From the NCBI RefSeq assembly GCF_014174255.1, contig NZ_JABEQJ010000018.1:1-64000 (forward strand): a DNA stretch of 64,000 nt, given 5' to 3'. The notes beneath the pieces were generated by a model, which worked only from the letters and a program-made list of their open reading frames with translations, was not told the origin of the DNA and did not search any database. Source of the stretch: Gluconacetobacter sacchari. GTDB lineage: Bacteria > Pseudomonadota > Alphaproteobacteria > Acetobacterales > Acetobacteraceae. A program made the position numbers and the translations under genes. Below are positions 38,985 through 64,000 of the stretch, in pieces; the stretch's first letter is position 1, and every line of letters begins with the position of its first letter.

Positions 38985-39102
38985 TCGGCACTCCGAAAAT
39001 GGGGATTGCGGTACCGTCGCATAGCTATGCATGCTGGCCACCCGATGTCCAAGGCCGGGACGTCGGCCATGGGCAATTGCACGAATCTGGGGGATCCAGC
39101 CG

Positions 39103-39264
39103 ATGACATCGCATCCGAAGGAAAAAGCCGAGCAAATGATCAAGGAACTCGGCGCACAGGCCCTGGCCGAGGCCGAGAAGCGCTACGGCGTGGCGCTGGA
39201 GATGCTGGACCTGAAGGACCAGGGTTTCTGGCTCGACGTGATCGACCGCATCAAGAAGCACTGA
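39103..39264 (+). CDS. Small conserved-looking protein of unknown function
   Basis: A 53-residue, charged, probably all-helical protein (MTSHPKEKAEQMIKELGAQA, then ALAEAEKRYGVALEMLDLKD, ending DRIKKH). GGGGGAT lies about seven bases before the ATG. Heptad-like spacing suggests a short coiled coil. I do not recognise a family. It borders the left end of the tRNA-Leu element. Confidence 0.6.
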   Translation: MTSHPKEKAEQMIKELGAQALAEAEKRYGVALEMLDLKDQGFWLDVIDRIKKH

Positions 39265-39343
39265 CCGCCCCCGGGCCAGCCCCGTCCGGCACAGGCGGGG
39301 CGGTTCGGGTCCGGACAGGAATCCCTCTTTCGATACCATGAAA

Positions 39344-39372
39344 GTGGTGCGAACTGCGGGACTCGAACCCGC
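39344..39372. repeat. Distal attachment-site repeat
   Basis: 29 bases identical to 42112-42140. The sequence is the CCA-bearing acceptor/T-arm end of tRNA-Leu(UAA), without the rest of the tRNA, marking the far end of the integrated element. A 12 bp palindrome TGGTTGCAACCA follows at 39379-39390, a possible recombinase-binding site. Confidence 0.9.
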
Positions 39373-39592
39373 TCTCTTTGGTTGCAACCAGTCAGACAAC
39401 CCATTGAAACAGACCGATAATTTCAGACGAAATCATCCTTCGCATGGTGACCGCGGGTTCACTGTGCGGGCAAACCCGTGGGGCAGTCAAGATGCAACGT
39501 CGACTTTTAGATATCGCACGCAGTAATGATAGTATTGCTCACTTTCAAACGAAAAGTATTTAGATTAAACCATTATTTTTTAAGGGAATGTC

Positions 39593-40402
39593 ATGATTAC
39601 TGTAAGAACCATAATCGAAGAAACTGTTAATTACGTAACGGAAAATAGTATATATAAAAACCTCTATATCAAACCAAGAGCGAAGGAATACGCCAATATA
39701 CCACAATACAAAGGAAAGTGGTTTTTATATCCGAGTATAGATATAAGGTCTTCTGGAGTGGATACTTCATTTTGGTTTAGTCCGGAGGCAGTTTCTATAT
39801 TCCACAATAATAAAAATTTATTTTCGCATGCTTTATCGAAAAAATTTGGAAAAGATAGGGTTTTTATTCGTAAGCGGTGTGGGTATGCTGTGATTGTAAA
39901 ATTTGACAAATTAAATAATAAAGAATTATTTATAAATGATTGTGAAAACATAAAAAATATTCATTCTTTAGGTGAGCAATTTATTGATATGATGGAAGTA
40001 TGTGATGATTTAGTTTCAATGCTAGGTGTTTACAGATCACAGCAGGAACTTGAAGAAGAAACTGAGAGAGGTGTTGAGCAATTAAATGAGGAGTGGACAA
40101 ATGAGAAGCAGATTGAATTTTTACAAAAAAATATAGGTCATGAGCTTCCAGAACAAGAAACGGTTCAGATTATTCGGTATAAAAGGAACCCTGCTGTAGT
40201 CGTTGCAGCTAGGTGGCGTGCTGATGGTCATTGTGAAGAGTGTAAAAAACCGGCACCATTTAAACGACAGTCTGATGGCAAGCCTTTTCTAGAGGTTCAT
40301 CATATTCACCCGCTATCTCAAGGCGGAGTAGATAAAATAGATAATGTGAAAGCGATTTGTCCTAACTGTCATCGCAAATTGCATTACGGAATTGATCAAT
40401 AA
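39593..40402 (+). CDS. HNH endonuclease, restriction/defence type
   Basis: A 269-residue protein with a C-terminal HNH nuclease domain. The zinc-binding cysteine pairs are in CEECKKPAP and CPNCHRKLH, and the active-site motif is EVHHIHPLSQGG with downstream DNVKAICPNCH, as in McrA-like modification-dependent endonucleases. The N-terminal about 185 residues (FLYPSIDIRSSG, DTSFWFSPEAVSIFH, RVFIRKRCGYAVI) have no family I can name and may be a modified-base recognition module. AAGGGA precedes the ATG. Very AT-rich codon use marks recent transfer. It is the only intact cargo gene of the island. Confidence 0.85.
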   Translation: MITVRTIIEETVNYVTENSIYKNLYIKPRAKEYANIPQYKGKWFLYPSIDIRSSGVDTSFWFSPEAVSIFHNNKNLFSHALSKKFGKDRVFIRKRCGYAVIVKFDKLNNKELFINDCENIKNIHSLGEQFIDMMEVCDDLVSMLGVYRSQQELEEETERGVEQLNEEWTNEKQIEFLQKNIGHELPEQETVQIIRYKRNPAVVVAARWRADGHCEECKKPAPFKRQSDGKPFLEVHHIHPLSQGGVDKIDNVKAICPNCHRKLHYGIDQ

Positions 40403-40445
40403 GAATTTTTATATTGAAAGTGAGCGACGAAGCGAAGCCAGCCGT

Positions 40446-40645
40446 GCAAACCAGCGGACACGTTGTGTTCCGATGGTTTGCAAACTGGTCAGGGGGAGAG
40501 CAATGCTCTCCCCCGTGAACCCCCTCTTTTCCATACTTATACTGCCCTGCAAGGTGCAGGCTAAAAAGGGAGGTTTCTGTGCTTTAGGGGGTCAACGGGG
40601 GAGGTCACTCCCCCTTGCCAGATGTCGAATGGGTAGCCATTCGAC
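40446..40645. repeat. Hairpin-dense noncoding stretch inside the island
   Basis: Four clean inverted repeats in about 200 bases: GCAAACCA/TGGTTTGC (40446-40481), GGGGGAGAG/CTCTCCCCC (40492-40514), GGGGGAG/CTCCCCC (40597-40614) and GTCGAATGG/CCATTCGAC (40624-40645). The region lies between the convergent ends of the nuclease and recombinase genes (40403-40660). The last hairpin may end recombinase transcription; the rest have no assigned role. No protein-coding signal was seen. Confidence 0.65.
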
Positions 40646-40660
40646 ACTGCTGGCTCCCTT

Positions 40661-42023
40661 TTAAAGAGTCACGTTTGCAAAGGCTGTTTCTGGGTAGCTG
40701 ATTGTCTCTACTGTCTGGCTGAGGTTGGCGGTGGTTATGCCAGTCAGATAGGTGGTTGTCCCTTGGCTTTTGTGAGTTGCTTCATGTCCCAGCAGGCGGT
40801 CAATCCAGACTTCCCTGATATTGGCATCCGCGTTTCGAAGTTGGGTCGATACGGTGTGCCGGAACGAGTGAAAGGTGATTTCTGCTGGCAGGCCAATGCG
40901 GGTCTTAAGCAATGAAAAGGCCCTGCCAAGGGCTGCGCCCCTGACACCCTGTTTCGAGGTTTCCAGACCCGGAATTAGATAAGGGCCGTCAGTGGTATCC
41001 TTAAGGGCCAGAACTCCTGCTTTAATCAGCTTTGAGTGGACTGGCACTACACGAGTGCCTGCTTCCGTCTTGGGTGCCCGCCGGTTTCGGTGTGAGGTCG
41101 GATAAGGAAGCAAGGGATACCGTCAGCGGTTTGGAGGTCTTCCTTGCGTAGGGTGCAGATTTCACCCAGCCTCATACCTGAGTAGGCTGCAATCAGGGTG
41201 ACAAGCTTGAAGGTCTGTTCTGGTACGGACGTGCTGTGCCATGAGGCAGAGGTCAGCAAAGTCAGTTCTCTGGCCGTCCAGCTTCTGCGTATGGTCTTTT
41301 GCCCATTCTCAAAATTCCAGCCTGTCCACGGATTGCGCGTGACCAGTTCCCGCTGGTGTAACTGGTTCCAGAGGGCAGAGAGGCGCATCATATGGTTTTT
41401 GACACTCTTACCACTCAAGGTTGGTAAACCTTCTTCTCTGGCCCGTTGTGCTTCTTCTTCAAGGGTAAGACTGCTTTTGCGTTTGCCCAGTGATGCTGGC
41501 AGAGAAAACAGCAGGTCACGGAATGCCCCAGCTTTCTCGCCACCAATAATGGACACAGGAGCATCTCCGAAAGCTTGAAGGAATAGATGTACTGCCCGCC
41601 GGGTCGCTTTCTTGGTGTCAGCGCTGGCATGAGGACTATCCAACACGAAGCGTATCAGGGCATCGGAGAGCATCAAGGTGGCTGCTTTGTCCGTTTTCTT
41701 TACTGTCCGGGGTTTGGGCATCGGTGCTGAAACTGGCATGGACCTCGTTTCCTGAGCGGATGAAGGCAGGTTCACGCTCTGCAAATCCCGCAGTGAAACC
41801 CACAGTCCCTCAAGCCTGCTTAAAGCGTCTGGTTCAGAGAGGGCTAGATGGGCCTGAGAGAATAACTCAGTGGTTCTGGCGTGAAGCAGAGAAGCGCGTT
41901 TGCGGGCCTCATTCTGGTAGCCGGTTTCAGTGAAACCCAGATTTCCCGCCGGTTTAGGGCTGCTCGCAGGGCAGGGGGAACGATACGGCGGAAGTGGTAA
42001 GTGGTGCCTCGGACACGGAGCAT
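40661..42023 (-). pseudogene. Tyrosine recombinase/integrase with two frameshifts
   Basis: Phage-type integrase of about 455 residues if repaired. The N-terminus (MLRVRGTTYHFRRIVPPAL, start 42023, GAGGGA upstream) is the DUF6538 type. The arm/SAM-like domain and the catalytic domain follow: AYSGMRLGEICTLR (Arg I), THE-equivalent TFHSFRHTVSTQL (HxxR) and LLGHEATHK. Reading frame is lost at about 41925 and again at about 41085. At each, one A appears missing from a GAAACCGG context (CCGGTTTC on the plus strand). The catalytic Tyr lies near the end (TTTYLTG). It is the integrase of the tRNA-Leu element. Confidence 0.85.
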
Positions 42024-50580: not shown

Positions 50581-52101
50581 ATGACCAGCATGACGACGAA
50601 AACCCGACGGACCGGCCTGGTCCTGACCTCGGCGCTGCTCATGGCGGGCTGCACGGTGGGCCCGCGCTACCAGCCCGACCGGATGAAGCTGCCCGCGCAC
50701 TTCACCGAGGACGAACACCCCGCCACCGATGCCGAGATCGCGCGCACCACGGTCGAACTGAAGGATTGGTGGCACCGGTTCGGCGATGCCGAACTGGACC
50801 GGCTGGTCGACCGCGCGATCAGCGGCAATTACGACCTGCAAATCGCCGGCCAGCGCATCCTGGCGGAGCGCGCGCTGCGCGACAGCCAGGCATCGGCCTG
50901 GTATCCGCAGATCGACGCCCACACCACCGACGGCGATTCGCGCTTTTCCATCAACATCGACAACTGGCCGCTGCGCCCCGGCAATCCGGCCAACCGCCCC
51001 GGCGCGTCCTATCTTTCCTATGGCGTCAGCGCGAGCTGGCAGATAGACGTGTTCGGCCGCATCCGCCGCAGCGTCGAAGCGCAGGAACGCGCGGTGGAAG
51101 AGACGATCGAGGATCGGCGCGCGGTGCTGATGACCATGCTCTCGGCCCTGGTCAGCGACTATATGGTGCTGCGCGACACGCAGTTGCGGCTGGAGATCTC
51201 GAACCGCAACATCCGCGTGGCGCAGGAAGCCTACGACCTGACTCAGCGCCTGTATCTGGAAGGCGTGGGCAACACGTTGCAGATCGCGCAGGCGAAGGCG
51301 GAGCTGGACAGCCAGCTTGCGGCGCGCGAGCCGCTGCGCACCCACATCGCGCAGATCACGCATGCCATCGACGTGCTGATGGGCCAGATGCCCGGCACGA
51401 CGGAAGCCGAGCTGAAGATCGCCCGCCCGCTGCCGAAGGTGCCGGACTTCCCGGCGACGCTCCCCTCGATCGTGCTGGCCAACCGTCCGGATATCCGCCG
51501 GGCGGAACGCGCCTATGCCGAGGCCACGGCCCGGATCGGGGTCGCGGTGGCGCAGATGTATCCGAATTTCAGCATCCCGCTGAGCTTCAACCCCAACGCC
51601 TCGGCGATGTACCAGCTTTTCCAGGCCGGAGCGCTGAGCTGGCAGTTCTTCATGCTGGCCTCGCTCCCGCTGGCGCATGGCGGCAAGCTGACGGCGCAGG
51701 TGCGCGGCATGCAGGCGGCGGCGGAAGCCAGCCGGCTGGGCTACCGCCAGACGGTGCTGACGGCCTTCCGCGAGGTCGAGGACGCGATGGCGGCCTGGCA
51801 TGACGACGTGGAACATACCGAATTGCTGCACCAGGCCGCGACCGACAGCCGGCTGGCCAGCGACCGCGCCCGCAAGCTCTACAGCGCCGGCCTGGTGGGC
51901 TTCCTGGATGTGCTGACAACCGAGCGCACCGCCCTGGCCGCCGAAAACGCCGAGGCCGAGGCCCGGCTGGAACGGTTGCAGGACGCGGTCAATCTCTACA
52001 CCGCCATGGGCGCGGGCTGGCAGGGCGTGGCCGTCACCGCCACCAGCCTGCCCGTCTCGCTGGAAAAACAGAACCTCCTGGCGCGCGCCTTCAAGGAATA
52101 G
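50581..52101 (+). CDS. NodT-family outer-membrane efflux lipoprotein
   Basis: The outer-membrane channel of the pump, 506 residues. A lipobox LLMAGC near residue 24 follows a signal peptide, so it is a lipoprotein like OprM/NodT. The internal duplication is readable as two OEP halves (WWHRFGDAELDRLVDRAI near 60; LANRPDIRRAERAYAEATARIGVAVAQMYPNF near 300). Last gene of the efflux operon. Confidence 0.94.
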   Translation: MTSMTTKTRRTGLVLTSALLMAGCTVGPRYQPDRMKLPAHFTEDEHPATDAEIARTTVELKDWWHRFGDAELDRLVDRAISGNYDLQIAGQRILAERALRDSQASAWYPQIDAHTTDGDSRFSINIDNWPLRPGNPANRPGASYLSYGVSASWQIDVFGRIRRSVEAQERAVEETIEDRRAVLMTMLSALVSDYMVLRDTQLRLEISNRNIRVAQEAYDLTQRLYLEGVGNTLQIAQAKAELDSQLAAREPLRTHIAQITHAIDVLMGQMPGTTEAELKIARPLPKVPDFPATLPSIVLANRPDIRRAERAYAEATARIGVAVAQMYPNFSIPLSFNPNASAMYQLFQAGALSWQFFMLASLPLAHGGKLTAQVRGMQAAAEASRLGYRQTVLTAFREVEDAMAAWHDDVEHTELLHQAATDSRLASDRARKLYSAGLVGFLDVLTTERTALAAENAEAEARLERLQDAVNLYTAMGAGWQGVAVTATSLPVSLEKQNLLARAFKE

Positions 52102-52177
52102 GCGCCGGCGCGGCGGCACGCGCCCCCGGCCGATCGATCCCCTTCGCGACACGACCCTCCAGGGCACCCGCAACCGC

Positions 52178-52201
52178 GCCGGCGCGATGCCGCGCGCCGG
52201 C
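52178..52201. terminator. Hairpin after the efflux operon
   Basis: Arms GCCGGCGCG (52178-52186) and CGCGCCGGC (52193-52201). No T-run follows, so termination strength is uncertain. The rest of the 264-base spacer to the next gene is AT-rich near 52225-52300, a likely promoter region. A small frame at 52187-52369 there has no support as a gene. Confidence 0.4.
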
Positions 52202-52365
52202 CGGCGATCATTCGTCGCCCGTCGCGCGCATTATAAATTTATTTACGATCGCCGTATAAAATTCCGTCGAATGGTATTTCGGAAAAAAAGAATTTCAGGA
52301 CAAGACGAAGAAAAGCGACAGTCCAGTCGAAATTTTCCGCTGCGAGCCTTCTTTGGACGGACCAG

Positions 52366-54204
52366 ATGACAGACGACAGCACGCTGTATGACTCGATCAG
52401 GGAGTCAGGGCTCTTCGACGACGCCGCCTATATCGCCGCCAATCCAGACGTCGCCAGGAGCGGGATCGATCCGCTGCTGCACTACATCCGGCACGGCCAG
52501 CACGAGACCCGCCGCCTGCCCTTTCCGCAATTCGACGCCGATCGATATATCGCCGATTTCCGTCTGGAAACCGTGGAGGGCAACCCGTTTTTCGACCTGG
52601 TCGGTCGCAACAGGTACCGGCCCGACCACCCGACCGCCACCCTCTCGCCGTTCGAGATCTATCTCTACAATCTGCTTCTGCATCTCGATCTGTTTGACGA
52701 GAAATTTTATATCCGGACCAACCAGGATCTCAGGAATTCCGACCTTCCCCCCCTGGTCCATTACGTCAAGTACGGCATCCACGAGCTGACGCGAAACCCC
52801 AACCGGACATATAACAACCAGATCTATCTCCGCCAGTTCGGTCACGAGATCCGGCCCACGGAACCGTCCATCCTCCATTATATCCGCAACAATCTCGGCC
52901 GCGACTACTCCGATCGGGGCCTGCTTGAGAAATTCGATCGCGCGGCGCTTGCCCTCGCGACGCGGCGCCTGGAACAATTTCCTTTCTATTCCGACAAGGA
53001 TTATGAATTCCTCAATCGCGACATCGAGAATTCAACCCTTCTGCCCCACCAGCACGCGCTGCTCTACGGCCTGCCCGAGGGCCGCACGATCTTTTCGAAG
53101 ATGCGAATCGCCGAGATTCTGGGCGCGAAGATGGACGCCACCCCGACCTACCAGCCCGCGGGCCGCCCGGCCAGGAACCTGCCCACCCCGGGCAGCCTGG
53201 GCGTTTTCTACCATACCGGCGGCAATTGCTTCATCAGGGACATCGCCGAGGATCTCGTCTCCTATCTGCGATCCGCCGGCCTCAACGCCACGCTGGAAAC
53301 CGAGAAGACCCCCCTGCACGCAAAGCCCGAACTCTGCCTGTTCTGCGCGCCGCACGAGTTTTTCTTCCTCGACGGGGCGAAGCAATGGGAACGGGACGAT
53401 ATTCTCGGCTCGTCGCTGATGCTCAATACCGAGCAGCCGCAAACGCCATGGTTCAGCCGGGGCCTGATCTATCTCCTGATGTCCGCGGGCGTGATCGACT
53501 TCCTCTACCAGAACGTCGAATTTTTCGAGTCCGTCGGCATTCCCAGCTTCCATTTCGACCCGATCCCGGACAGCGCGCCGACGAGCATTCTGGAAAAGGA
53601 CCGCGTCGATCCGTTGTTTCGCGTCCTTCCCGACGATGCGAAGCACGATCCGCCGAACGGGGAACAGCGGCCTGTCGCCGCGCGCGGCATCGATGTCAGC
53701 TTTTTCGGCAATGCCTCCGCCCGCCGCGAGAAATTCTTCACCCGCAACGCCGCCATCCTCGCGGAGCGGACCTGCTTTCTCTACTACCGCAAGCAGCACG
53801 ACCCGATCCGGATGGAAGGCGCCAGCGAGATCCTGGCGCGCATGCCGTTCTATGTGGCCGAGAACAGCAAGATCTGCCTCAACATCCACCGCAATGACGA
53901 TCCGTATTTCGAATGGCACCGCATCATCAAGCAGGGCGCCGCCCGAGGCGCGGTGGTGGTCACGGAAGACTGCCTGCCGACGCCGCTTTATCGCAACGGC
54001 GTCCATTTCCTGACCGAGACCCCCCGTCATATGCCGCATCTGATCAACTGGCTGCTCGACACGCCCGACGGACGCGCGCGCGCGCAGCAGATCCAGGACG
54101 CCTGCCTTGGCCTCTTCCGCGACAGGAAGCTCCAGAAATCCAAGATCAACGATATTGCCGGGTTTATCGGCACCTTGTGGCAAAGGACCGCCGTCGATGC
54201 ATGA
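52366..54204 (+). CDS. Glycosyltransferase-like protein with NPDV-type N-terminal repeats
   Basis: A 612-residue protein. The first about 200 residues hold repeated units of about 45 residues of the form F-D-x-x-Y-I-x-x-N-P-D-V-x-x-[SG]-x-[DI]-P-L-x-H-Y (LFDDAAYIAANPDVARSGIDPLLHYIRHG; LFDEKFYIRTNQDLRNSDLPPLVHYVKYG). The C-terminal part (from about 277) has YHTGGNCFIRDIAEDLVSYL and NSKICLNIHRNDDPYFEWHRIIKQGAARGAVVVTEDC near 500, a pattern of CgeB/glycosyltransferase-family-1-like proteins. No classical GT motif is certain. It is the first of four tightly packed forward glycan genes and overlaps the next by eight bases. Confidence 0.72.
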   Translation: MTDDSTLYDSIRESGLFDDAAYIAANPDVARSGIDPLLHYIRHGQHETRRLPFPQFDADRYIADFRLETVEGNPFFDLVGRNRYRPDHPTATLSPFEIYLYNLLLHLDLFDEKFYIRTNQDLRNSDLPPLVHYVKYGIHELTRNPNRTYNNQIYLRQFGHEIRPTEPSILHYIRNNLGRDYSDRGLLEKFDRAALALATRRLEQFPFYSDKDYEFLNRDIENSTLLPHQHALLYGLPEGRTIFSKMRIAEILGAKMDATPTYQPAGRPARNLPTPGSLGVFYHTGGNCFIRDIAEDLVSYLRSAGLNATLETEKTPLHAKPELCLFCAPHEFFFLDGAKQWERDDILGSSLMLNTEQPQTPWFSRGLIYLLMSAGVIDFLYQNVEFFESVGIPSFHFDPIPDSAPTSILEKDRVDPLFRVLPDDAKHDPPNGEQRPVAARGIDVSFFGNASARREKFFTRNAAILAERTCFLYYRKQHDPIRMEGASEILARMPFYVAENSKICLNIHRNDDPYFEWHRIIKQGAARGAVVVTEDCLPTPLYRNGVHFLTETPRHMPHLINWLLDTPDGRARAQQIQDACLGLFRDRKLQKSKINDIAGFIGTLWQRTAVDA

Positions 54205-54985
54205 CAAGCCCTGGAAACCGCGGCCCGAGATCCTGTTCGAGCACGTCGCGCGCCGCCGGGGCACCAACCGTCACCATGTCTCGGTCATCGTCACCAACTA
54301 TCATTACGAACAGTATGTGGTGGCCTGCCTGGATTCGATCGCCGCGCAGACCCATGGCCCGCTCAGCCTGGTGGTGATCGACGACAATTCGAGCCGCGAC
54401 GCGTCCGTGACGACCATCATGGACTGGATGGCCGCCCACAAGCAGCGCTTCGTGTCGGCGCGATTGCTGCGCAACGTCATCAACCAGGGCCCCTCGGCAT
54501 CGCGGAACACCGCGATCGAATTCAGCCCGTCCGACACGGTCTTCATCATGGACGCCGACAACATGATCATGCCGTCGGCCATCGCCAAGCTTCATGCCTG
54601 CATGACCCGTTCCGGCGCCCAGGTCGTCTATTCCCAGCTTCTCGAATTCGGCACCCGCAACCAGATCGGCATGGCCGACCTCTGGGATGTCGAACGGATG
54701 TACAAGAACAACTATGTCGACATCATGGCCATGGTCGACAAATCCGCCTGGTCCCGGGTCGGCGGCTTCTCGCATATCGAAGAAGGCTGGGAAGATTATG
54801 ATTTCTGGCTCAAATTCATCGACCACGGCATCGACGTCGTCTTCCTGCCGGAAATCCTTTGCCAATATCGGGTCCACGAGGTCTCGCGAACCGCCACCGA
54901 GGCATTCAAATCCCACTACGACCTCGAGATCATCATGCGCTACCGCCACCCCAAGGCCCCGCTCCCGCTGCCGACGCGGGCATGA
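54197..54985 (+). CDS. Family 2 glycosyltransferase
   Basis: A 262-residue GT2 with VSVIVTNYHYEQYVVACLDSI at the start, nucleotide-binding VVIDDNSSRD, the metal-binding DxD as MDADN near 118, and GGFSHIEEGWEDYDFWLKF as the acceptor ED motif. Soluble, no membrane helix. ATG at 54197 overlaps the upstream gene; the stop overlaps the next ATG. Confidence 0.92.
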   Translation: MHDKPWKPRPEILFEHVARRRGTNRHHVSVIVTNYHYEQYVVACLDSIAAQTHGPLSLVVIDDNSSRDASVTTIMDWMAAHKQRFVSARLLRNVINQGPSASRNTAIEFSPSDTVFIMDADNMIMPSAIAKLHACMTRSGAQVVYSQLLEFGTRNQIGMADLWDVERMYKNNYVDIMAMVDKSAWSRVGGFSHIEEGWEDYDFWLKFIDHGIDVVFLPEILCQYRVHEVSRTATEAFKSHYDLEIIMRYRHPKAPLPLPTRA

Positions 54986-56433
54986 GCGCCATCATGAGCA
55001 CGCCGATCGGCTACAGTCATTGCAATCTTGATCTGAGCAACCAGAAACTCGCCCTTCTCGGGCTTGTGCAAACGGCCCTCGACCGAGGCGTCCACGCGAT
55101 CCGGCTGCCCGCCCTGGCTCCCTTTGTCTCTGGCGCGCCCGGCAACGCCGGCTCGCCGCTGGCCGAGACATGCCCCTTTGCCGATTATTACGACCTTGAT
55201 GCCCTGAAACGCTTCATGCGCATATTCGGTCTCGAGCTGATCGAAGACCCGGAAACGAATACCGAGGAACCATATGGCAGCTTCATGACGGGCGCCAGCG
55301 CCGTCGGCCTGTCCGGCGCACGCGGACTTGGCGCGCTCTATGGACATGTCTGCCAGTTCTTCTCCCACCTGATCCCGTCGATCCGCGTCGCAGAGACCCT
55401 CGCCACTTTCCGGAAGGAGGTGTACGATTCTCTCGCCATCAAGACTGCCCTGCATCTGTGCATCGACACGGACCTGTCGGAGGAAGCCGGCATCGTGGCG
55501 TGCGAGACAATCCTGCGCAAGGTCCAGTCCTGGCCCACCCTGGCCGAAACACCGATCTACGTCGCCTGTGAGGAGCAGACCCTGCCGGTCAGCAAGGAGA
55601 AGATCCGCCAGATGGCCAGAAACGGATATGGCCTGGATCTGGTCTGGAAGAGCGACCTCCTGACCGGGCAGGCACTGGCCGCGTGGAACAGTCTCGACCT
55701 TTCCCTGCTTGATTTCGAGACCGCGCTGGCTGCCAGCCTGTTCATCGGCAACAGCCACTCGACCTTCTCCAATCTGGTCTCGTTCGAGAAATTCTGTCGC
55801 GATCGAACAAATATCCAAAACCATGCCATCCATAACGGCCAGGAGGCGACCTTGACGCAGCGCCGTGACAACGGCGTGGAATGCGATCCGATCCTCGTCG
55901 CCACCTCCCTGCTGCAACGCCTGCCCCTGGTCCCGCTCGGCACGCACGATTGTCGCTGGCCCGCAGCGATCCACGCCCATGTCGCCGGATTCGGCGACAT
56001 GGAAAGCACGACAGCACCGGTACCCGGTCTGGCGGGCGGTGACCTCGTCGTCGGCAGTCCGCGCGACGACGGGCGGTGGATCTGCGGCATCGCAATTGCC
56101 ATCGAGGAAATCGCCGGCATCGCAATCGAATATCGCGTTCTGGACGATACCGGACAGTGGAGCGACTGGGTCGCGAACGGTGCCTTTGCCGGGTACCATT
56201 CAGATCACCGGGCCTTGCGGGGGGTCGCGATCCGGCTGGCGGGCCCCGCCGCGCTTCACTACGACTGTCTATATGGTGCCACATTCGCGGAATCGGACAC
56301 ATGCATCATGCGCGCTAACGGCGAGGCCTGCCAGTCCCCGGATCAGAGGGCCGTGACCTGCCTGCATGTCCTGTTTCGTCCAGCCTTCGGCGCATGCCCG
56401 CGCGCCTCCCGTTCCATGCCGACGATCCTCTGA
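54982..56433 (+). CDS. O-fucosyltransferase-like protein with C-terminal ChW-like module
   Basis: A 483-residue protein. The N-terminal about 330 residues resemble bacterial O-FucT/GT65-68-like enzymes: GYSHCNLDLSNQKLALLGLV near the start, IKTALHLCIDTDLSEEAG, and SLFIGNSHSTFSNL near 255 (the nucleotide-sugar G-N-S-x-S-[ST]-F-S motif). The C-terminal about 130 residues include YRVLDDTGQWSDWVANGAFAG and GVAIRLAG. That is the pattern of ChW repeats (G-x-W-x-x-W-V-x-x-G-x-x-x-G ... I-x-L) known from Gram-positive surface proteins. A paralogue with the same architecture lies at 60871-62283 on the other strand. Assignment is by pattern only. Confidence 0.7.
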   Translation: MSAIMSTPIGYSHCNLDLSNQKLALLGLVQTALDRGVHAIRLPALAPFVSGAPGNAGSPLAETCPFADYYDLDALKRFMRIFGLELIEDPETNTEEPYGSFMTGASAVGLSGARGLGALYGHVCQFFSHLIPSIRVAETLATFRKEVYDSLAIKTALHLCIDTDLSEEAGIVACETILRKVQSWPTLAETPIYVACEEQTLPVSKEKIRQMARNGYGLDLVWKSDLLTGQALAAWNSLDLSLLDFETALAASLFIGNSHSTFSNLVSFEKFCRDRTNIQNHAIHNGQEATLTQRRDNGVECDPILVATSLLQRLPLVPLGTHDCRWPAAIHAHVAGFGDMESTTAPVPGLAGGDLVVGSPRDDGRWICGIAIAIEEIAGIAIEYRVLDDTGQWSDWVANGAFAGYHSDHRALRGVAIRLAGPAALHYDCLYGATFAESDTCIMRANGEACQSPDQRAVTCLHVLFRPAFGACPRASRSMPTIL

Positions 56434-56446
56434 CAGCCGCGCTGCC

Positions 56447-59371
56447 ATGCCAGACAACGCCTTACCCTACCGATACTCCTGGGACCATTTTGATCTCGCC
56501 TGGATAAGGGATACCTATCCGGAAACCCGGGAGATCATTGGCGGCGACACGGCCGATATCGGCGATCTGCCGCGGCTTGCCGGACTCTGCGGCTACTCGC
56601 CCAATCCATATTTCGACGAACGCTATTATGTCGCGCGTTATCCTGACGTGCGCCAGGCCATCGACCAGGGGCGCTACCTGTCCGGATTCGATCACTACCG
56701 GAAGGCCGGCCATCGCGATCGAAACCCCCACTGGCTGTTCAGTGAACAATATTATGTCACCACCAATCCCGACATCGGCCGCCTGCTGCTCAACGACTCC
56801 AGCCTGCGCAACGGATACGACCACTACCTCCGCTTCGGCGATGCCGAGTTCCGCACCGGCTCATGGTTCTTCGATCCGCTCGAATATATAAAATCGACCA
56901 CGAACGAGATCATCCGGACCCCGTTTTCCCATTATCTTTTGCATCCTTCTGGATATTCCAACAGCGCGTGGTTCGATACCGACTGGTACATGGCCACCTA
57001 CCCGCAGGTTCTCGACGCCATCCGGCGCGGCGAATGGCGTTCGATCCTCCATCACTACCTGCACAACAAGAGTGACGGGCACTTCGACCCCTGCCCGTAT
57101 TTTTCCGAACGTTTCTATGTGCAGTCCAATCCGGACATTCGCGACGCCATCCTTTCCGGCCAATTCAACAGCGGATACGAGCATTTCCTCCTCTACGGAT
57201 TGAGGGAACGCCGTCAGCCGCACCCTGACGTCGATCTGGCCCGCTACGCCTGCGTCCCTGCCGTTCAGGAAGATCTGCGGAGCGGTCGCCGTCCGAATCC
57301 CTTCATCGCCTATTGCCGGGACAAGGGTGCCCCCCCCGATATCGACGCCATTCTCGAACAGACGGAAGACGCCACGAAATACGCGTTCGAGAAGAAATGT
57401 ACCGTCCTGTCGTTCAATGCCGCTCGCCGGCCGCTCGATTTCTCGCACGGACGGCCGGATGTCAGCGTCATCATCGCCCTGCACAATCATTTCGACATGA
57501 CCATCAATGCCCTGACGGCACTGCGCGCATCGCATGACGGAGGCATCCAGTTGATCCTGGTCGATGGCGGCTCCCAGGACGAGACGCGCGATCTGGAACG
57601 CTATGTCAGAGGGGCCACGATTCTGCGCCTCCCCGGCAATGTCGGCTTCGTTCGGGCGTGCAACGCCGCAATCGAGCATGTTGCCGCCCCCTTCGTCCTG
57701 TTCCTGAACAACGATACCGAAATCCAGCCCGGATCGATCGCGGCCGCCTTGCAGCATTTCCGCCGCCATTCTTCTACCGGAGTCATCGGAGCGAAGCTGA
57801 TTCGCACCAATGGATTGCTCCAGGAAGCCGGTACGATCATCTTTCGCGACGGTAGCGTCGCCGGCTATCTGCGAGGCAGACGCCCCGACAGTCCGGAGGC
57901 GAATTTCGTCCGTCGGGTCGATACATGCTCCGGCGCCTGCCTGTTCACCCGTACCGACCTCCTGCGTCGCCTCGGCGGCTTCGACGAAGCTTATATTCCG
58001 GCCTATTATGAGGAAACGGATTATTGCGTCCGGGTCTGGAAATCCGGATCCGAGGTCGTCTACGATCCGTCGATAAACGCCATCCATTACGAATACGGCT
58101 CCTCGGACCACACCTCCGGGGCAGGCTACATCAACCGCAACCGGCTGATCTTCAACGGCCGTCATACCGACTTCCTGGCGCGCAAGCTCGTCCGGTCCGA
58201 ACGCACCATCGCCACCGCCCGCTCCCCATTCCGGCCCGGTGCCCGGCGCATCCTGTTTGTCGAGGATCAGATTCCCCTCCGACAGTACGGCTCCGGCTTC
58301 ACACGCGCGAACGATATCGTCACGACGATGGCAATGGCGGGGCATGAAGTCACCCTCTTCCCGATTTTCAAGCCGCTGGTTCATCCAAGCCATCTTCATG
58401 CCGCCTTTCCCGACACGGTGGAGATCATATGGGACCGCGACCTGCCTGACCTGGAGCGTTTCCTCGCGCAGCGCGCCGGGCTTTATGATGTGATCTGGGT
58501 GTCCCGCACCCAGAATGTCCGCCGGCTGATCCCGGTGATCGAGCAAACGGCCCACCTGATGCCCCAAACCATGCTCGTCGCGGATACCGAGGCCGTCAGC
58601 GCGGTCCGCGACGAGCAGAAGGACCGGCTGCACGGCATGACCGACGAACAGATGCCCAGCCTGACGGAGCGTCTGCGCGCTGAGTTCGAATGTCTGTTCA
58701 TCGCCAGCCGAATCGTCGCCGTCAATGCCCGCGACGCCCGCCTGCTGAGCGACCACGGCTTCGCCGACGTTCGCGTGTTGGGCCACATGCAGACCCCCCG
58801 CCCAGGCGGCAGACCGTGGACCGAACGATCCGGCCTGCTCTTCGTCGGCGCGATCCATCATCGCGATTCACCGAATTTCGACGCCCTGGAGTGGCTGGTG
58901 ACACAATTGTGGCCGATGCTGGAACCCTTGCTACCCGACGATGCAAAACTGTTGGTGGCCGGCCATATCGGACCGGCAGCTTCGCTGGCCGGCCTGCCGC
59001 AATCGCCGCGCATCGTCTATCTCGGCGAACAGGCCGACCTAACGCAATTTTACGACAGCGCCCGGCTGTTCATCGCACCCACCCGCTACGCGGCCGGCAT
59101 CCCCTACAAACTCCACGAGGCTGCCGCACATGGCCTGCCAGCCGTCGCGTCCGACATTCTCTGCCGGCAACTGGACTGGGCCGATGGTGACGAGATTCTT
59201 TGGGCACGCGCGAACGACTCGACGGACTTCCTCCGCGTTATCACCAACGCGTACGACAATCCGACATTATGGGCCCGGCTGCGCTATAATATGCAGGCTC
59301 ACATCGCCATGGAGAACGATTATCGCCTCTATACCCGGCTGATCGAGGGGATTCTGACCTCGACCGGATGA
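56447..59371 (+). CDS. Repeat-bearing GT2-GT4 bifunctional glycosyltransferase
   Basis: A 974-residue protein. About residues 45-270 carry four to five NPDV-type repeats (FDERYYVARYPDVRQAIDQG, FSEQYYVTTNPDIGRLL, FDTDWYMATYPQVLDAI, FSERFYVQSNPDIRDAI), the same kind as in the protein at 52366-54204. A GT2 domain follows (VSVIIALHNHFDMTINAL near 338, LFLNNDTE near 420, YIPAYYEETDYCVRVW). A GT4-type C-terminal domain completes it (RILFVEDQIPLRQYGSGF near 600, LLFVGAIHHRDSPNFDALEWL near 795, ending APTRYAAGIPYKLHEAAAHGLPAV). It likely adds two sugars in succession to a polymer or protein. Confidence 0.88.
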   Translation: MPDNALPYRYSWDHFDLAWIRDTYPETREIIGGDTADIGDLPRLAGLCGYSPNPYFDERYYVARYPDVRQAIDQGRYLSGFDHYRKAGHRDRNPHWLFSEQYYVTTNPDIGRLLLNDSSLRNGYDHYLRFGDAEFRTGSWFFDPLEYIKSTTNEIIRTPFSHYLLHPSGYSNSAWFDTDWYMATYPQVLDAIRRGEWRSILHHYLHNKSDGHFDPCPYFSERFYVQSNPDIRDAILSGQFNSGYEHFLLYGLRERRQPHPDVDLARYACVPAVQEDLRSGRRPNPFIAYCRDKGAPPDIDAILEQTEDATKYAFEKKCTVLSFNAARRPLDFSHGRPDVSVIIALHNHFDMTINALTALRASHDGGIQLILVDGGSQDETRDLERYVRGATILRLPGNVGFVRACNAAIEHVAAPFVLFLNNDTEIQPGSIAAALQHFRRHSSTGVIGAKLIRTNGLLQEAGTIIFRDGSVAGYLRGRRPDSPEANFVRRVDTCSGACLFTRTDLLRRLGGFDEAYIPAYYEETDYCVRVWKSGSEVVYDPSINAIHYEYGSSDHTSGAGYINRNRLIFNGRHTDFLARKLVRSERTIATARSPFRPGARRILFVEDQIPLRQYGSGFTRANDIVTTMAMAGHEVTLFPIFKPLVHPSHLHAAFPDTVEIIWDRDLPDLERFLAQRAGLYDVIWVSRTQNVRRLIPVIEQTAHLMPQTMLVADTEAVSAVRDEQKDRLHGMTDEQMPSLTERLRAEFECLFIASRIVAVNARDARLLSDHGFADVRVLGHMQTPRPGGRPWTERSGLLFVGAIHHRDSPNFDALEWLVTQLWPMLEPLLPDDAKLLVAGHIGPAASLAGLPQSPRIVYLGEQADLTQFYDSARLFIAPTRYAAGIPYKLHEAAAHGLPAVASDILCRQLDWADGDEILWARANDSTDFLRVITNAYDNPTLWARLRYNMQAHIAMENDYRLYTRLIEGILTSTG

Positions 59372-59458
59372 ATAGGGCCACGCTCAGGTCAGAAAAATTT
59401 ATCTGCCGGCCTTTTTGTCAACTTGATATAATTTCGCGCTATATTCCCTCGCAACCCG

Positions 59459-60775
59459 TCAGTTCGCGATTTCATGTCCGAGCTTCAAGGGATACCAATG
59501 TCCGTGTTCATAGATGACTGGAACATGATCAGTGCTGTCGTTCAACATCATCCCTTCTTTGGCTGTCGTGATGCCAAGGATAGCCGTCCTGGATAAAGGC
59601 TGAAGTTGCATCGTTCCCTTCAAAACAAGGGAGCCGGTGTGGACCGACCCCGGGAGTACAATCGAACCGTCATCATGAATGGCCATTCGGACAGCATTGT
59701 TCGCCACGTATAGGAATCCTGCTTTCCTATCATAGAACATGATGTGCCGATTCTTGCCCTCCGCAGTACCGTCAGCTGACCAGTCCATGATACCGTCGAG
59801 CGGAAAACGGATCATCGCACCAGCCGCAACATTCATGTTGTTCCTGGCAAGTGCCAGGTCTATGAAGGCATTGTCATATGTTACCCGTGACGAACCGATC
59901 CCTGTATTAAAACGCGAATTGCTATCTGTTGTGAATTCAAAACCAGCTCCCACGACGTTTTGACACATTTCGGAGAAGGACCAGGTCACACTATTATCGA
60001 TTACAACGTCATTTGAATCCCAAGGGGGGGCTGACGCTCCGCTCCTCCCCGGCACGATAGCCTTGAAGATTCCACATTCTCCGCGAAAGCTTGCAGAAAT
60101 GGCATCAGAAGCAGAATATGACGTGAACGCCGACCAGGCGGGAACAGTCAGCGTTTTTGCAGACAGAAAGTAGAAGACCCGGTTTGATCGGCTGACATCA
60201 TATTGCGACACAGGGAGATCATCCCCATTCGCCATGATGTCGAATTCCATCCCCCATGTCTCGCCAACGGGTTGCGCGTGAGTCGTATCGGTGATCTGTC
60301 CGGCAAACCCCCAGACACCGTTGGTTCCACCCTTGACCACGCCGACCGCATAACCCTGGTCCAGAGCAGCCCCATTATTGGTCCCGTAACTGTAGAGATT
60401 CACATGTGTGCCGACGGTATTCCCGTTCGAACCCGAATGGGCATAAGCGGACACTTCGAGACCGGTAGAGCCTTCAGGGCCTTTATAATCGGTGTGCCAA
60501 TCGGTTGCCCAGTTATCGAGGGCCAACCGCATGATTGGCGCTTCCGACAAACCATGGTTCCATCGGCGCGCATAGGTCAGGGCATCAATCGAATAGGATT
60601 CCATAACATCGCCACTGGTGACGAATGGCGCAATAGTATTGTCGACGATCACGGGATCAAAAAAACGCCACAGCACGGTCTCACGGTTCTTTCTCGCTGT
60701 GGACAAAGGTGTGTCTGCATATGCGACGCCTAGAAACGCAAGCATAGCCAAGAGCAAGGCGAGTTTCCGTATCAT
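59459..60775 (-). CDS. Secreted tail-fibre-like protein
   Basis: A 438-residue exported protein with signal peptide MIRKLALLLAMLAFLGVAYA. The rest is a beta-rich sequence full of G, S, N and T, with phrases typical of phage tail-fibre or appendage repeats (GSTGLEVSAYAHSGSNGNTVGT, DGSIVLPGSVHTGSLVLKG, GITTAKEGMMLNDSTDHVPVIYE). No enzyme motif seen. Start taken at the ATG at 60775, not the upstream frame. It is the last gene of the reverse glycan strand and could be a secreted surface protein or glycan-binding target. Confidence 0.65.
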   Translation of the reverse strand: MIRKLALLLAMLAFLGVAYADTPLSTARKNRETVLWRFFDPVIVDNTIAPFVTSGDVMESYSIDALTYARRWNHGLSEAPIMRLALDNWATDWHTDYKGPEGSTGLEVSAYAHSGSNGNTVGTHVNLYSYGTNNGAALDQGYAVGVVKGGTNGVWGFAGQITDTTHAQPVGETWGMEFDIMANGDDLPVSQYDVSRSNRVFYFLSAKTLTVPAWSAFTSYSASDAISASFRGECGIFKAIVPGRSGASAPPWDSNDVVIDNSVTWSFSEMCQNVVGAGFEFTTDSNSRFNTGIGSSRVTYDNAFIDLALARNNMNVAAGAMIRFPLDGIMDWSADGTAEGKNRHIMFYDRKAGFLYVANNAVRMAIHDDGSIVLPGSVHTGSLVLKGTMQLQPLSRTAILGITTAKEGMMLNDSTDHVPVIYEHGHWYPLKLGHEIAN

Positions 60776-60870
60776 GTGATGAAAACGCTCTCGTTTGCAA
60801 CGCCGCCGTTTGCCAGTTCCTGAAGCAGCGCCTCGCCATTCCACTTCCATGCATCAATTTTCCAAAGAAT

Positions 60871-62283
60871 TTACCGAACTCTTTTTCTAAAGGATAACTG
60901 AAAAGATAATAATTTTCCGTTTCCACTGGGCGTTTTACAAAGCTCTCCATCTTTCGCGGTCACAATATCCTGATCCTCAGAAAAAACCGCGGCGTAGACG
61001 CACTCAAGCTCAAGCCTTGAGGGACCTACAATCTCCACGGCAAAACCGGACAGTGAGAGATGCTTACCACGCGTGCCGCAATACTCCCCATTTGAAACCC
61101 ATTCGGTTTCCACACCATTGCCAAGAAGGGCCTTGTAGCGCAGGCGAAGACTCGCTCCGTCAAGACTGATGAAAAAACCTTCTATGCGATACATATCTGG
61201 ATTGTATCTGGAACCGACAACTATATCCAATCCAAGAGGAAAACTGCATACAGAGTTCTTTGTTATATATTCGCCAAAATTTGAAACATGAGCCGAAATT
61301 TCCATCGGGAACGCAACATCATGTGGTGTTCTGTCAAAAAACGGCTCCCTGAGAAAAGTCCTGTCGATTGCGAGCGACGAGTTTGTACATATGCCATTAT
61401 CAAATCTTTCATCTATTCCGCCAGACTCACCATTATATATATAATGCCCCCTGACGGACTGTCGCGTTTTGCAGTATTTTTCAAATGCTGCAAAACAGGA
61501 AAACGTTGATTGGCTCGTCCCTATGAAATTTCTAGCGCCTGATGCAAGGAAAAAGTCAATCATAGACAATGTTAGCGAATCATATTGACTCACATCAATG
61601 AAGTCTGATTTCCAAAAAAGAGAGACACCCACTTCATTTTGCGCAATTTTATTTATATCCTCTTTTGGGATGGTCATATTTTTTTCATCGGACATCACAA
61701 AAGCTGAAGATAAAGATTCGCCAAATTTCCGCTTTGCTTTGGACAAAATCCTCAATGGCGTAGGGAAATTGTCTTCAGATGAGTGGCGATGCAGAACACT
61801 ATAACTATATGACTCCCAGTCCTTTTCAATTCGCATTTGAATACAATAATCAATTTTTTTTTCACCAAATATGCATTCTGATATCGGGCGAGCGAGATTC
61901 AAAATGTTATTATTCAGATTAAATGACCTGGAAATCTGACATGTTAAGTCATATAGCGCAGCATCTCCCTGCGTTCTGATCTCCCCAAAACGTTCCGCAC
62001 CTTCCCAAAAACACTCCGACGCATCAACGTCGTGATCGTCACCCGACGCGAATTCCTTTACGGGTATTGAAAAAGATTCAAGTACACGAACGATATTTTC
62101 TATATTATATAGAACAGAAAAAGGAACACGCCTGCCCTTTTCCGCCTGAAGTGGGTCGAAGACAACCATTGGAGGAAGTTTTATGCCTTTTTTTTCCCTC
62201 ATCGCACGATGAGACAAACCGATTATCGCGATTTTCTGATTGGTTAACCCTGCATCCGTTCCGTTATAAGTTATATAGTCCAT
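60871..62283 (-). CDS. AT-rich O-FucT-like protein with ChW-like module (paralogue of 54982-56433)
   Basis: A 470-residue protein with the same architecture as the forward-strand gene: TYNGTDAGLTNQKIAIIGLSH at the start, ARNFIGTSQSTFSCFAAF (the G-T-S-x-S-T-F-S equivalent of the nucleotide-sugar motif), and a C-terminal LRYKALLGNGVETEWVSNGEYCGTRGKHLSLSGFAVEIVGP segment that fits a ChW repeat even more closely than its paralogue. Codon use is markedly AT-rich against the GC-rich neighbours, pointing to recent acquisition. ATG at 62283; a TTG at 62304 is an alternative. Confidence 0.7.
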   Translation of the reverse strand: MDYITYNGTDAGLTNQKIAIIGLSHRAMREKKGIKLPPMVVFDPLQAEKGRRVPFSVLYNIENIVRVLESFSIPVKEFASGDDHDVDASECFWEGAERFGEIRTQGDAALYDLTCQISRSFNLNNNILNLARPISECIFGEKKIDYCIQMRIEKDWESYSYSVLHRHSSEDNFPTPLRILSKAKRKFGESLSSAFVMSDEKNMTIPKEDINKIAQNEVGVSLFWKSDFIDVSQYDSLTLSMIDFFLASGARNFIGTSQSTFSCFAAFEKYCKTRQSVRGHYIYNGESGGIDERFDNGICTNSSLAIDRTFLREPFFDRTPHDVAFPMEISAHVSNFGEYITKNSVCSFPLGLDIVVGSRYNPDMYRIEGFFISLDGASLRLRYKALLGNGVETEWVSNGEYCGTRGKHLSLSGFAVEIVGPSRLELECVYAAVFSEDQDIVTAKDGELCKTPSGNGKLLSFQLSFRKRVR

Positions 62284-62360
62284 TTTTTTTCTTTCATGTT
62301 CCAAAAATATATATAGACGAATTAAGCGCGTGCCCGATTATCCTCAGTCCGCATTTGTGA

Positions 62361-63359
62361 TCAGGGTTCCAGGGCGCTGGCATCCACAACGAATGGATCG
62401 AGGATACAATTCTCCCCTTCACGCTTTGTCCAATCGCGCTGATAGATTTCAAACAGTCCCTGTTCACCGCCGGATTGCAGTTGTTCGTAAAAACGAACCC
62501 AATGTTCGCCACCGACTTTCCGCCCAAGAAAGGCCTCGGCTTCCTTGATCGCCTTACCGCCGTTTGCGATTTTTCTCAGGAAATGTGAAAATGACCGGAT
62601 TGGAAATTCTCTGTAATAAAGGCCAAACTGAAATCCGCCAATATAGACGGGGGCTCGATTATCGACCAAGTTAATTTTGTGATTCCCCTGTTCAATGGCC
62701 ATGAACAGATTATTACGTCCGATAATCTTCGGAGGCACGACAAAGAGCGGACTTCGTAAATTCATTCTCTGCATAGACGAGGAACCGTTACAACTCAGAT
62801 CCTTATTACGAAAATGAATGGTTTTTGGTATTGAAACCGCATCGAATCGACTGTCTATTTTATCCAGTACAGCGATCCCATGTTCCGCAATCAAAAATTC
62901 GTCCGCATCCACCGGGATCACCCAGCGGATATCGGGCCAGATGGAAATGGCCAAGCGATACAGACCCGTCGTTTTTTCCGCTTGCATGTAACGCACCAAC
63001 GGGTCGCTCAGGACAAGAAGTTCAACGTCCTTATGGATAGTATTAAATCTTTTTAATATTTCTCCGGTGTCGTCAGTTGATCCATTATTGAGCACGATAA
63101 AACGTCGAATGCCAATATGATGCAACCATGTGAGGTTTTCTCCAATAATGTCCCCTTCGTCTTTCACCATCACCACCACTGCGGCCGCCATAAATGGCGT
63201 CCACGCTCCTTCTGGCGTTTTCAAAGGAGCATTCATTCCGAATATCTGAAGTTCGCTGTGAACAGCACCCGCCCAACAATAAGGATCGATCGGGGGCTGA
63301 TTAAGCAGCCCGTGGACGTTGAGATTCCAGATCAGTTCTTCGTAATGTTGATAGGACAT
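62361..63359 (-). CDS. Glycosyltransferase family 2/92-like
   Basis: A 332-residue enzyme. The Glyco_tranf_2_4/GT92-like core is AAVVVMVKDEGDIIGENLTWLHHIG, RRFIVLNNGSTDDTGEIL near 90 and VIPVDADEFLI (DxD). The C-terminal part FSHFLRKIANGGKAIKEAE is also typical. AAGGGA precedes the ATG at 63359. AT-rich relative to the window but less than its neighbour. Confidence 0.87.
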   Translation of the reverse strand: MSYQHYEELIWNLNVHGLLNQPPIDPYCWAGAVHSELQIFGMNAPLKTPEGAWTPFMAAAVVVMVKDEGDIIGENLTWLHHIGIRRFIVLNNGSTDDTGEILKRFNTIHKDVELLVLSDPLVRYMQAEKTTGLYRLAISIWPDIRWVIPVDADEFLIAEHGIAVLDKIDSRFDAVSIPKTIHFRNKDLSCNGSSSMQRMNLRSPLFVVPPKIIGRNNLFMAIEQGNHKINLVDNRAPVYIGGFQFGLYYREFPIRSFSHFLRKIANGGKAIKEAEAFLGRKVGGEHWVRFYEQLQSGGEQGLFEIYQRDWTKREGENCILDPFVVDASALEP

Positions 63360-63386
63360 ACATAAAATTCCCTTTTTATACACAGA

Positions 63387-64000
63387 TTAAGGAATAACTC
63401 GCCCTTCGATGGCCGGATTTCGCCATAGTTGCTTTGTCGGGCCAACCACGCGCACCGCACCCCGTCCACAACCATCATCGTCGCGCAGCACATGGTCCTG
63501 CACCGTTACGCTGAGGTTCGGATTATAGAACGGGTCGCCATCGCGCAGGATTCCGGCATGGCGTTCCAGCATCCGCCGCGTATCCTCGGGGTGCATGACC
63601 TGCTTCGTCACGCTGCGCGTGGCGCTCTCGTAATGATACAGCACGGTATGGCCGTCATACAGCACCTTGAACCCGGCCTCGCGCACGCGCAGGCACAGAT
63701 CGGTATCGTTGAATCCGATCTTGAAGGATTCATCGAATCCGCCGACCTGCTCGAAGACGGCGCGCCGCATCATCATGCAGGCGGCGGTGACGGCCGAAAA
63801 ATCGCGCACCGACGTCAGGCTGCAATTATAGCCAAGAACCCTCGCATCGCCCGGCCCATACACATCGCCGAACTTGAAGGCATGGTCCGCCGAGCCATTG
63901 AATCCCAGGATCACACCGGCATGCTGCACCCGCCGGTCGGGATAAAGCAGCAAAGCCCCCACCACCCCGACTTCCGGCCGGTTCGCCAGCCGGCGCATGC
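63387..64000 (-). CDS. Glycosyltransferase family 2, C-terminal part (truncated by window edge)
   Basis: About 205 codons of a GT2 enzyme whose N-terminus lies beyond the right edge. Visible are RPEVGVVGALLLYPDRRVQHAGVILG, SLTSVRDFSAVTAACMMMRRAVFEQVGGFDE and FNDTDLCLRVREAGFKVLYDG (the ED acceptor motif of rhamnosyl/galactofuranosyl-type GT2). GC-rich, unlike the two genes downstream of it. The first nucleotide-binding motif is outside the window. Confidence 0.85.
   Translation of the reverse strand, partial: MRRLANRPEVGVVGALLLYPDRRVQHAGVILGFNGSADHAFKFGDVYGPGDARVLGYNCSLTSVRDFSAVTAACMMMRRAVFEQVGGFDESFKIGFNDTDLCLRVREAGFKVLYDGHTVLYHYESATRSVTKQVMHPEDTRRMLERHAGILRDGDPFYNPNLSVTVQDHVLRDDDGCGRGAVRVVGPTKQLWRNPAIEGRVIP

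Follow-up and report, generated by a model that had tools for sequence, protein, structure and literature searches.

We analyzed a stretch of 64,000 nucleotides from Gluconacetobacter sacchari (contig NZ_JABEQJ010000018.1, positions 1 to 64,000; hereafter the window), in which two proteins of one glycan locus, P0001 and P0002, join an N-terminal domain resembling the animal protein O-fucosyltransferases (O-FucT, POFUT) to a C-terminal triplet of ChW-like repeats. They represent a ChW-bearing POFUT-like transferase built from known families, and the fusion recurs, with nine proteins in seven genomes. We read the locus as a variable glycan island: its transferases would have a docking module in common, and a secreted fibre-like protein encoded nearby may be their substrate. 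We assign this reading as a whole a probability of about 0.5. P0002 would be an active transferase that works in the cytoplasm with a sugar bound to guanosine diphosphate (GDP), and P0001 a non-catalytic partner. The ChW triplet would dock the enzyme on its acceptor, or on a partner common to the enzymes of one locus, as its co-occurrence with them suggests. Candidate acceptors are the secreted fibre-like protein whose gene adjoins that of P0002 and a surface glycan assembled by the transferases nearby; this is the weakest step of the reading. The O-FucT-like plus ChW architecture was not found in the open-licence literature, and may exist in print or in a database.

A POFUT-like domain followed by a degenerate ChW triplet

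Both reading frames are open at the predicted coordinates (Table 1), and the two proteins are homologous over their full length (29% identity, 132 of 459 aligned columns, E 4e-62). The original prediction had given both an O-FucT-like N-terminus with a GNS/GTS-x-STFS motif, and this was borne out, the motif being present as IGNSHSTFS and IGTSQSTFS. In the Pfam scan, ChW scored 26.4 bits in P0002 (curated cut-off 22), the sole one of the four domain matches in the pair to exceed its cut-off. O-FucT scored 20.5 bits in P0002 and 25.3 bits in P0001 (cut-off 31.5), and ChW reached 17.0 bits in P0001. At the permissive limit of E 1, Pfam O-FucT matched all 13 copies of the N-domain (best 2.1e-15) and ChW matched 30 of 31 aligned modules (best 2.5e-9), so that the C-terminal ChW assignment was recovered as well, with HMMER in place of HHpred.

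A profile search of the PDB retrieved POFUT1 (3zy2; E 5e-4 over the whole sequence), and the NQ, RxxxDW and STFS stretches were in register, each of them weak alone. The AlphaFold2 model of P0002, calculated from a 35-row alignment, had a predicted local distance difference test score (pLDDT) of 93.5 and a predicted template modelling score (pTM) of 0.91. Foldseek ranked POFUT2 and POFUT1 at the top for this model (E 6e-8). In a second structural comparison, the first 43 rows were all fucosyltransferases with Z from 18.6 to 13.6, POFUT1/2 being at about 18, and the row after them had a Z of 7.4. Based on the P0002 model, the computation places the N-domain as a GT-B domain in the fucosyltransferase superfamily, nearest to POFUT1/2 and then to NodZ, FUT8 and AtFUT1. 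The structural matches stop near residue 342, and none covers the module.

The repeats of the module are related to each other according to hhalign (R1-R2, P 3e-5; R2-R3, P 2e-5), weakly so for R1-R3 (0.034). Hidden Markov models (HMMs) of R1 and R2 matched all three repeats of a canonical Nostoc plasmid protein, and that of R3 clearly matched one only. The GW dipeptide of ChW is absent from both window modules and present in many stand-alone modules. The predicted pattern G-x-W-x-x-WV applies in part: its first Trp is present in P0001 (TGQWSDWV) and missing in P0002 (NGVETEWV). Computation thus shows the C-domain to be a degenerate ChW triplet, common to several other kinds of glycan enzyme. 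In the part of a review available to us, ChW repeats are proposed to act in triplets and their ligand is given as not known (PMC5817068).

The predicted model of the isolated module had a pLDDT of 90.7 and a pTM of 0.85, providing a confident basis for designing binding tests. Against the PDB, the modelled fold gave no Foldseek match at E ≤ 0.001 and a best structural Z of 3.5, which does not by itself imply a novel fold, and the module sequence gave just two rows (E 0.45 and 0.46). For ChW, no template is given in the accessible part of a modelling study from 2021 (PMC8078820).

Distribution and possible role of the module

With a seven-row profile of the N-domain, 10 of 397 family genomes gave matches, 13 copies in all (E ≤ 1e-5). 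No match beyond the window's own genome was obtained among 385 genomes of the class (E ≤ 1e-6), and the domain was found in none of the 13 other genomes of the genus within the 397-genome search. The module is C-terminal in all nine two-domain copies, and the other four copies lack it; the two-domain order thus occurs in seven proteins besides the pair. A contig scan of named genomes placed seven N-domain loci in Acidocella (four loci), Acidisoma silvae, Acetobacter cibinongensis and Acidiphilium rubrum, the last with N-domain and module in separate genes. A named-genome scan with P0001 gave 28 pattern matches, with no relative among them.

The module is far more widespread. The original prediction described ChW as known mainly from secreted or surface proteins of Gram-positives, and its fusion to a glycosyltransferase-like domain as unfamiliar; the fusion stands, but the module is not an isolated import. 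The P0002 query matched 137 of 200 family genomes (E ≤ 0.001; own genome included), and nearly all of the matches listed cover residues ~366-468 only, i.e. the module. The module profile (E ≤ 1e-5) was found in 8 of 385 class genomes, four of them from the same family including the own genome, and in 2 of 170 phylum genomes, namely the own genome and one from the same family. On another contig of the own genome, a third match, to the module only, lies in a 378-amino-acid protein beside a group-1 glycosyltransferase (GT) gene. Twelve plasmid records matched P0002, all in the module only (ten Azospirillum, one Nostoc and one Acetobacter aceti).

Glycan enzymes of several kinds carry the module or are encoded beside it. 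Carriers assigned by Pfam include GT61 with a methyltransferase and the module (L045), GT61 with the module and GT2 (L044), GT90 with the module (L042), methyltransferases with the module (L038, L041) and, on an Azospirillum plasmid, TPR with GT2, group-1 GT and the module (L069). GSCFA proteins at two Acidocella loci have the module at their N-terminus. The ChW match is under the cut-off in L045 and L038, and only a custom HMM reveals it in L041 and the two GSCFA proteins. A second module-bearing gene is close by in 4 of 12 O-FucT-like loci (the window, G705, G748 and Acidiphilium rubrum), with locus L073 cut by a contig end.

A stand-alone ChW-triplet protein was also observed (L003, most of L011-L029, L033, L060-L062, L071), with an N-terminal domain of its own and, in several cases, a Lys/Ala-rich tail. 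Across the family it pairs with a group-1 GT gene, and the two are fused in L063 and L064. A group-1 GT homologue is beside or fused to the module in 25 of 34 module loci (selected loci, flanks mostly 1.5 kb), and in 22 of the 23 loci that contain the N-part of the stand-alone protein. The remaining locus, on the Acetobacter aceti plasmid, has a group-1 GT gene that was unmatched by that BLAST search.

Two other roles of the module were weighed against docking. It could be a structural or oligomerising extension that binds no acceptor, as might be suggested by its C-terminal position in 9/9 two-domain proteins, by the four N-domain copies that manage without it and by the review passage on the ligand cited above. 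However, the same module is found on unrelated catalytic folds (GT61, GT90, GT2 plus group-1 GT, methyltransferases) and at the N-terminus of the two GSCFA neighbours, and a transferable binding or docking function therefore fits better; we regard a mere extension as somewhat unlikely. The module could also anchor the protein at the cell surface, the enzyme then working outside, since in the accessible part of the same review Gram-positive ChW repeats are predicted to serve surface anchoring or protein interaction, mostly in endolysins (PMC5817068). The three-repeat protein from Nostoc has, by eye, a Tat-like (twin-arginine) leader, whereas inspection by eye revealed no signal peptide in either window protein or in the stand-alone proteins of the family. 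In addition, the N-domain belongs to the type that uses nucleotide sugars, which occur in the cytoplasm, and we consider surface anchoring highly improbable. The recurrence of ChW as an accessory module on Gram-negative glycan enzymes of cytoplasmic appearance provides a new, testable idea of its ligand.

The pair differs strongly in base composition, as predicted, with a GC content of 62.8% in P0001 and 41.9% in P0002 and a third-position GC of 0.77 and 0.39, respectively; in two genes upstream of the glycan cluster the latter value is about 0.90. The N-domain tree groups P0002 with the copies from G661 and G652 (support 100/99) and leaves P0001 without a supported partner. A local duplication was rejected (approximately unbiased test, p 5e-6 for holding together the pair, which was named before the tree was made). 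This result supports the proposed separate acquisition of the two copies. The claim that they are paralogues holds for their homology and fails for a sister relationship. A tree built from the module alone for the nine two-domain proteins had little resolution; P0001 and P0002 were close to one another there, on weakly supported branches (42/5, 51/50).

Active-site residues and the sugar donor

According to the accessible part of a study of CePOFUT1, the R240A and R240K variants are inactive, N43A is reduced 25-fold and W245A 12.5-fold, and F357 binds the nucleotide, F357A being weak in GDP binding (PMC3180450). In the alignment, N43, R240, W245 and F357 correspond to N15, R151, W156 and F261 of P0002, and R40 of CePOFUT1 has no Arg equivalent there. 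P0001 retains the Asn and the Phe, with C160 and L165 in place of the R240 and W245 equivalents, and directly after this segment it is shorter by 11 residues than P0002 and by 13 than L053. The Arg and Trp are lost and 11 residues are missing, whereas R-I-E-x-D-W is conserved in the remaining 12 copies; as far as its sequence indicates, P0001 therefore probably does not function as a transferase of the POFUT type. It might instead be active by another mechanism, or the gap might be an assembly artefact; its open frame, its intact C-terminal module and its start, which overlaps the preceding gene, would agree with this. The change of R to C and of W to L together with the gap, in only 1 of 13 copies, and the inactivity of both R240 variants in the available CePOFUT1 data (PMC3180450) make such an activity quite unlikely.

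Synthesis of GDP-mannose was found in all ten hosts of the N-domain. The gene gmd (TIGR01472, E ≤ 1e-30) was not found in the own genome, which is rated 100% complete, or in G092, G073, G652 and G661, and the fucose pyrophosphorylase of the salvage route was found in 0/10 hosts; these negatives hold at the limits used, weaker matches being outside their scope. The other five hosts have gmd, above the family cut-off in G179 and below it in G096, G663, G705 and G748, as do two of eight other genomes of the genus that were searched (G174, G680). Since the host makes GDP-mannose and no GDP-fucose route was detected in it, the "O-fucosyl" of the original prediction is valid as a fold and family name and should not be read as a statement of the donor. 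For the same reason, the donor of P0002 would more likely be GDP-mannose, or a sugar derived from it through a pathway not recognised here, than GDP-fucose.

P0002 could still be a true GDP-fucose-dependent fucosyltransferase supplied by a route not recognised here, as the 43 leading solved structures, all fucosyltransferases, and gmd in half of the hosts would suggest. We find this somewhat doubtful in view of the five genomes in which gmd was not detected, the own genome among them, and of the salvage result. POFUT-like enzymes in hosts with no detected GDP-fucose route suggest that the fold may have other donors in bacteria.

The glycan island, its fibre-like neighbour and known systems

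The features of the locus are listed in Table 1. Nine other genomes of the genus have both border genes of the island (E ≤ 1e-100), close together in seven of them, with a gap of 0.13-0.67 kb in G717, G731 and G123, 11 kb in G042 and G680, and 17 kb in G595 and G627. The borders are about 210 kb or more apart in G756 and on different contigs in G768; at the window locus the gap is 14.3 kb. The gaps of G042 and G680 contain other transferases and a secreted protein, and that of G595 a 73% identical copy of the 969-amino-acid transferase. The island (52102 to contig base 66395) is thus variable, nearly empty in three related genomes and 11 to 17 kb long in four, and the three looked at differ in contents.

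Table 1. Features of the glycan locus and its borders (window positions unless stated otherwise)
Feature	Position	Strand	Remarks
Outer-membrane efflux gene	50581-52101		Island border
Glycosyltransferase-like protein	52366..54204	+	N-terminal YIAxNPDV-type repeats; Pfam Glyco_trans_1_2 E 0.02, under cut-off
Family-2 glycosyltransferase	54199..54985	+	ATGA overlap with P0001 start; start by eye, listed open reading frame from 54107
P0001	54982..56433	+	483 amino acids; O-FucT-like domain ~1-315, ChW-like triplet ~325-470; probable pseudoenzyme
P0001 residues 160-165, C-I-D-T-D-L	55459..55476	+	R-I-E-x-D-W in 12/13 copies
P0001 ChW-like triplet	55954..56391	+	
GT2 plus group-1 GT protein	56366..59371	+	1001 amino acids; N-terminal YYVxxYPDV repeats
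Secreted fibre-like protein, candidate acceptor	59459..60775	-	3' of P0002, same orientation; signal peptide, start by eye; listed open reading frame from 60850
P0002	60871..62283	-	470 amino acids; O-FucT-like domain ~1-315, ChW-like triplet 327-468
P0002 ChW-like triplet	60880..61305	-	Repeats taken as residues 329-374, 378-419, 423-470
P0002 residues 151-156, R-I-E-K-D-W	61816..61833	-	Aligned with R240-N-D-A-D-W245 of CePOFUT1
Family-2 glycosyltransferase (PF13704)	62361..63383	-	Directly upstream of P0002
969-amino-acid protein, 3' part	63387..63998	-	Two GT2 domains; runs beyond the window to contig base 66296
Phosphoketolase gene	contig bases 66395-68773		Island border

The P0002 relative in Acetobacter cibinongensis likewise has a PF13704 gene immediately upstream. 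The glycosyltransferases at 52366-54204 and 56366-59371, and also L137-L140, carry N-terminal repeats of the type YYVxxYPDVxxAI..HYxxxGxxExRxP; for the two window enzymes, a Pfam scan assigned these repeats to no family. A phage or plasmid origin of P0001 and P0002 was rejected on the records searched. P0002 had no tblastn match in 50,697 phage records, and 72,556 plasmid records contained neither a match to P0001 nor a near-identical match to window positions 52102-64000, the plasmid matches of P0002 being confined to the module. Elsewhere in the window, positions 39001-42000 have a low GC content (0.45-0.55) and a positive GC skew, unlike most of the window.

Homologues of the fibre-like protein were identified in 15 of 394 family genomes (E ≤ 1e-6; own included), and in G661 one lies 2.7 kb from the P0002 relative. 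The family (59459-60775; L080, L095-L099, L133-L140) has a conserved C-terminus of the type EGMxVNDSDDHVPVIYENGHWYPMxLG, from which L138 diverges. PHROGs gave no match to the window protein and three weak matches to the G661 copy (E 0.04 to 0.4).

A gene of a glycosyltransferase family lies near the fibre-like gene in 15/15 genomes, at a gap of 30 to 2,682 bases, with the neighbours chosen by eye. Fourteen of these were assigned by Pfam names, and that of G079 is DUF4422, which Pfam does not name a transferase. The family of the neighbour changes: O-FucT-ChW (window, G661), GT61 (G174, G054), GT2 or GT2 with group-1 GT (G744, G606, G189, G142), GT25 (G030), Gly_transf_sug (G117, G713), GT8 (G682, G704) and GT17 with an F5/8C module (G759). 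The last type is seen in L097 (10098-11585), where a GT17 with a C-terminal F5/8 type C module, another binding-type module in the same setting, lies beside the fibre-like gene. Insertion sequence elements seem to lie between the two genes in some genomes (G661, G079, G054).

The count of 15/15 comes from Pfam run at the fibre loci alone, on neighbours picked by eye; the corresponding count with a blind query set was 7/15. This set comprised 26 glycan-enzyme proteins, each locus being searched only with those taken from other loci (phmmer, E 1e-5), and it matched 0 of 20 seven-kb control stretches (Fisher p 0.001). The controls were drawn from seven of the 15 genomes, at positions chosen on known contigs, and not all fibre stretches reached 7 kb. 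Among the queries applied to the window locus, one, the 969-amino-acid GT, came from the same island. The seven positive loci are not independent, as G606, G189 and G142 belong to one genus and the window, G744 and G174 to the window's genus. A protein plus swappable transferase cassettes is a possible description of this arrangement.

Several observations weigh against the island and docking reading. Docking has been deduced from co-occurrence only, and the part of the review seen names no ChW ligand (PMC5817068). P0001 is not visibly pseudogenised, its frame being open and its module intact, and in the five hosts with gmd fucose may be the donor. As for the acceptor, 10 of 12 O-FucT-like loci have no detected fibre-like homologue in the stretch examined, the other two having one, and several loci, in Acidocella and Acidisoma, stand alone among housekeeping-like genes, as judged by eye. 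The fibre-like protein is therefore not the acceptor in general, and its position is a hint for P0002, not for the whole O-FucT-like family. Across the Acetobacteraceae, secreted fibre-like proteins might even be glycosylated by a modular system with exchangeable parts, in which a single secreted protein is accompanied by one or a few adjacent transferases whose family varies. In some of these transferases an intracellular ChW triplet would dock the enzyme on the acceptor, POFUT-like members would use GDP-mannose-type donors, and the present locus would include an inactive POFUT-like partner; we put forward this wider scheme as an unlikely one.

Compared with known systems, the two proteins share with POFUT1/POFUT2 (PF10250), their nearest solved structures, the GT-B fold and the NQ, RxxxDW and STFS stretches in register. 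They differ in scoring under the Pfam cut-off, in the C-terminal ChW triplet, in a host with no detected GDP-fucose route and, for P0001, in the loss of the Arg and Trp. The alpha-1,6-fucosyltransferases NodZ and FUT8 have the same superfamily fold (Z about 14 to 15.6), with a weaker structural match than POFUT. With the ChW repeats (PF07538) of Clostridia, Lactococcus and endolysins, the module has in common the Pfam match, the arrangement in triplets, the WV-x-NG core and the hydrophobic strand. In contrast to these, its repeats are degenerate, GW is not kept in the window copies, and it is found on glycan enzymes of Gram-negatives, with no signal peptide seen by eye.

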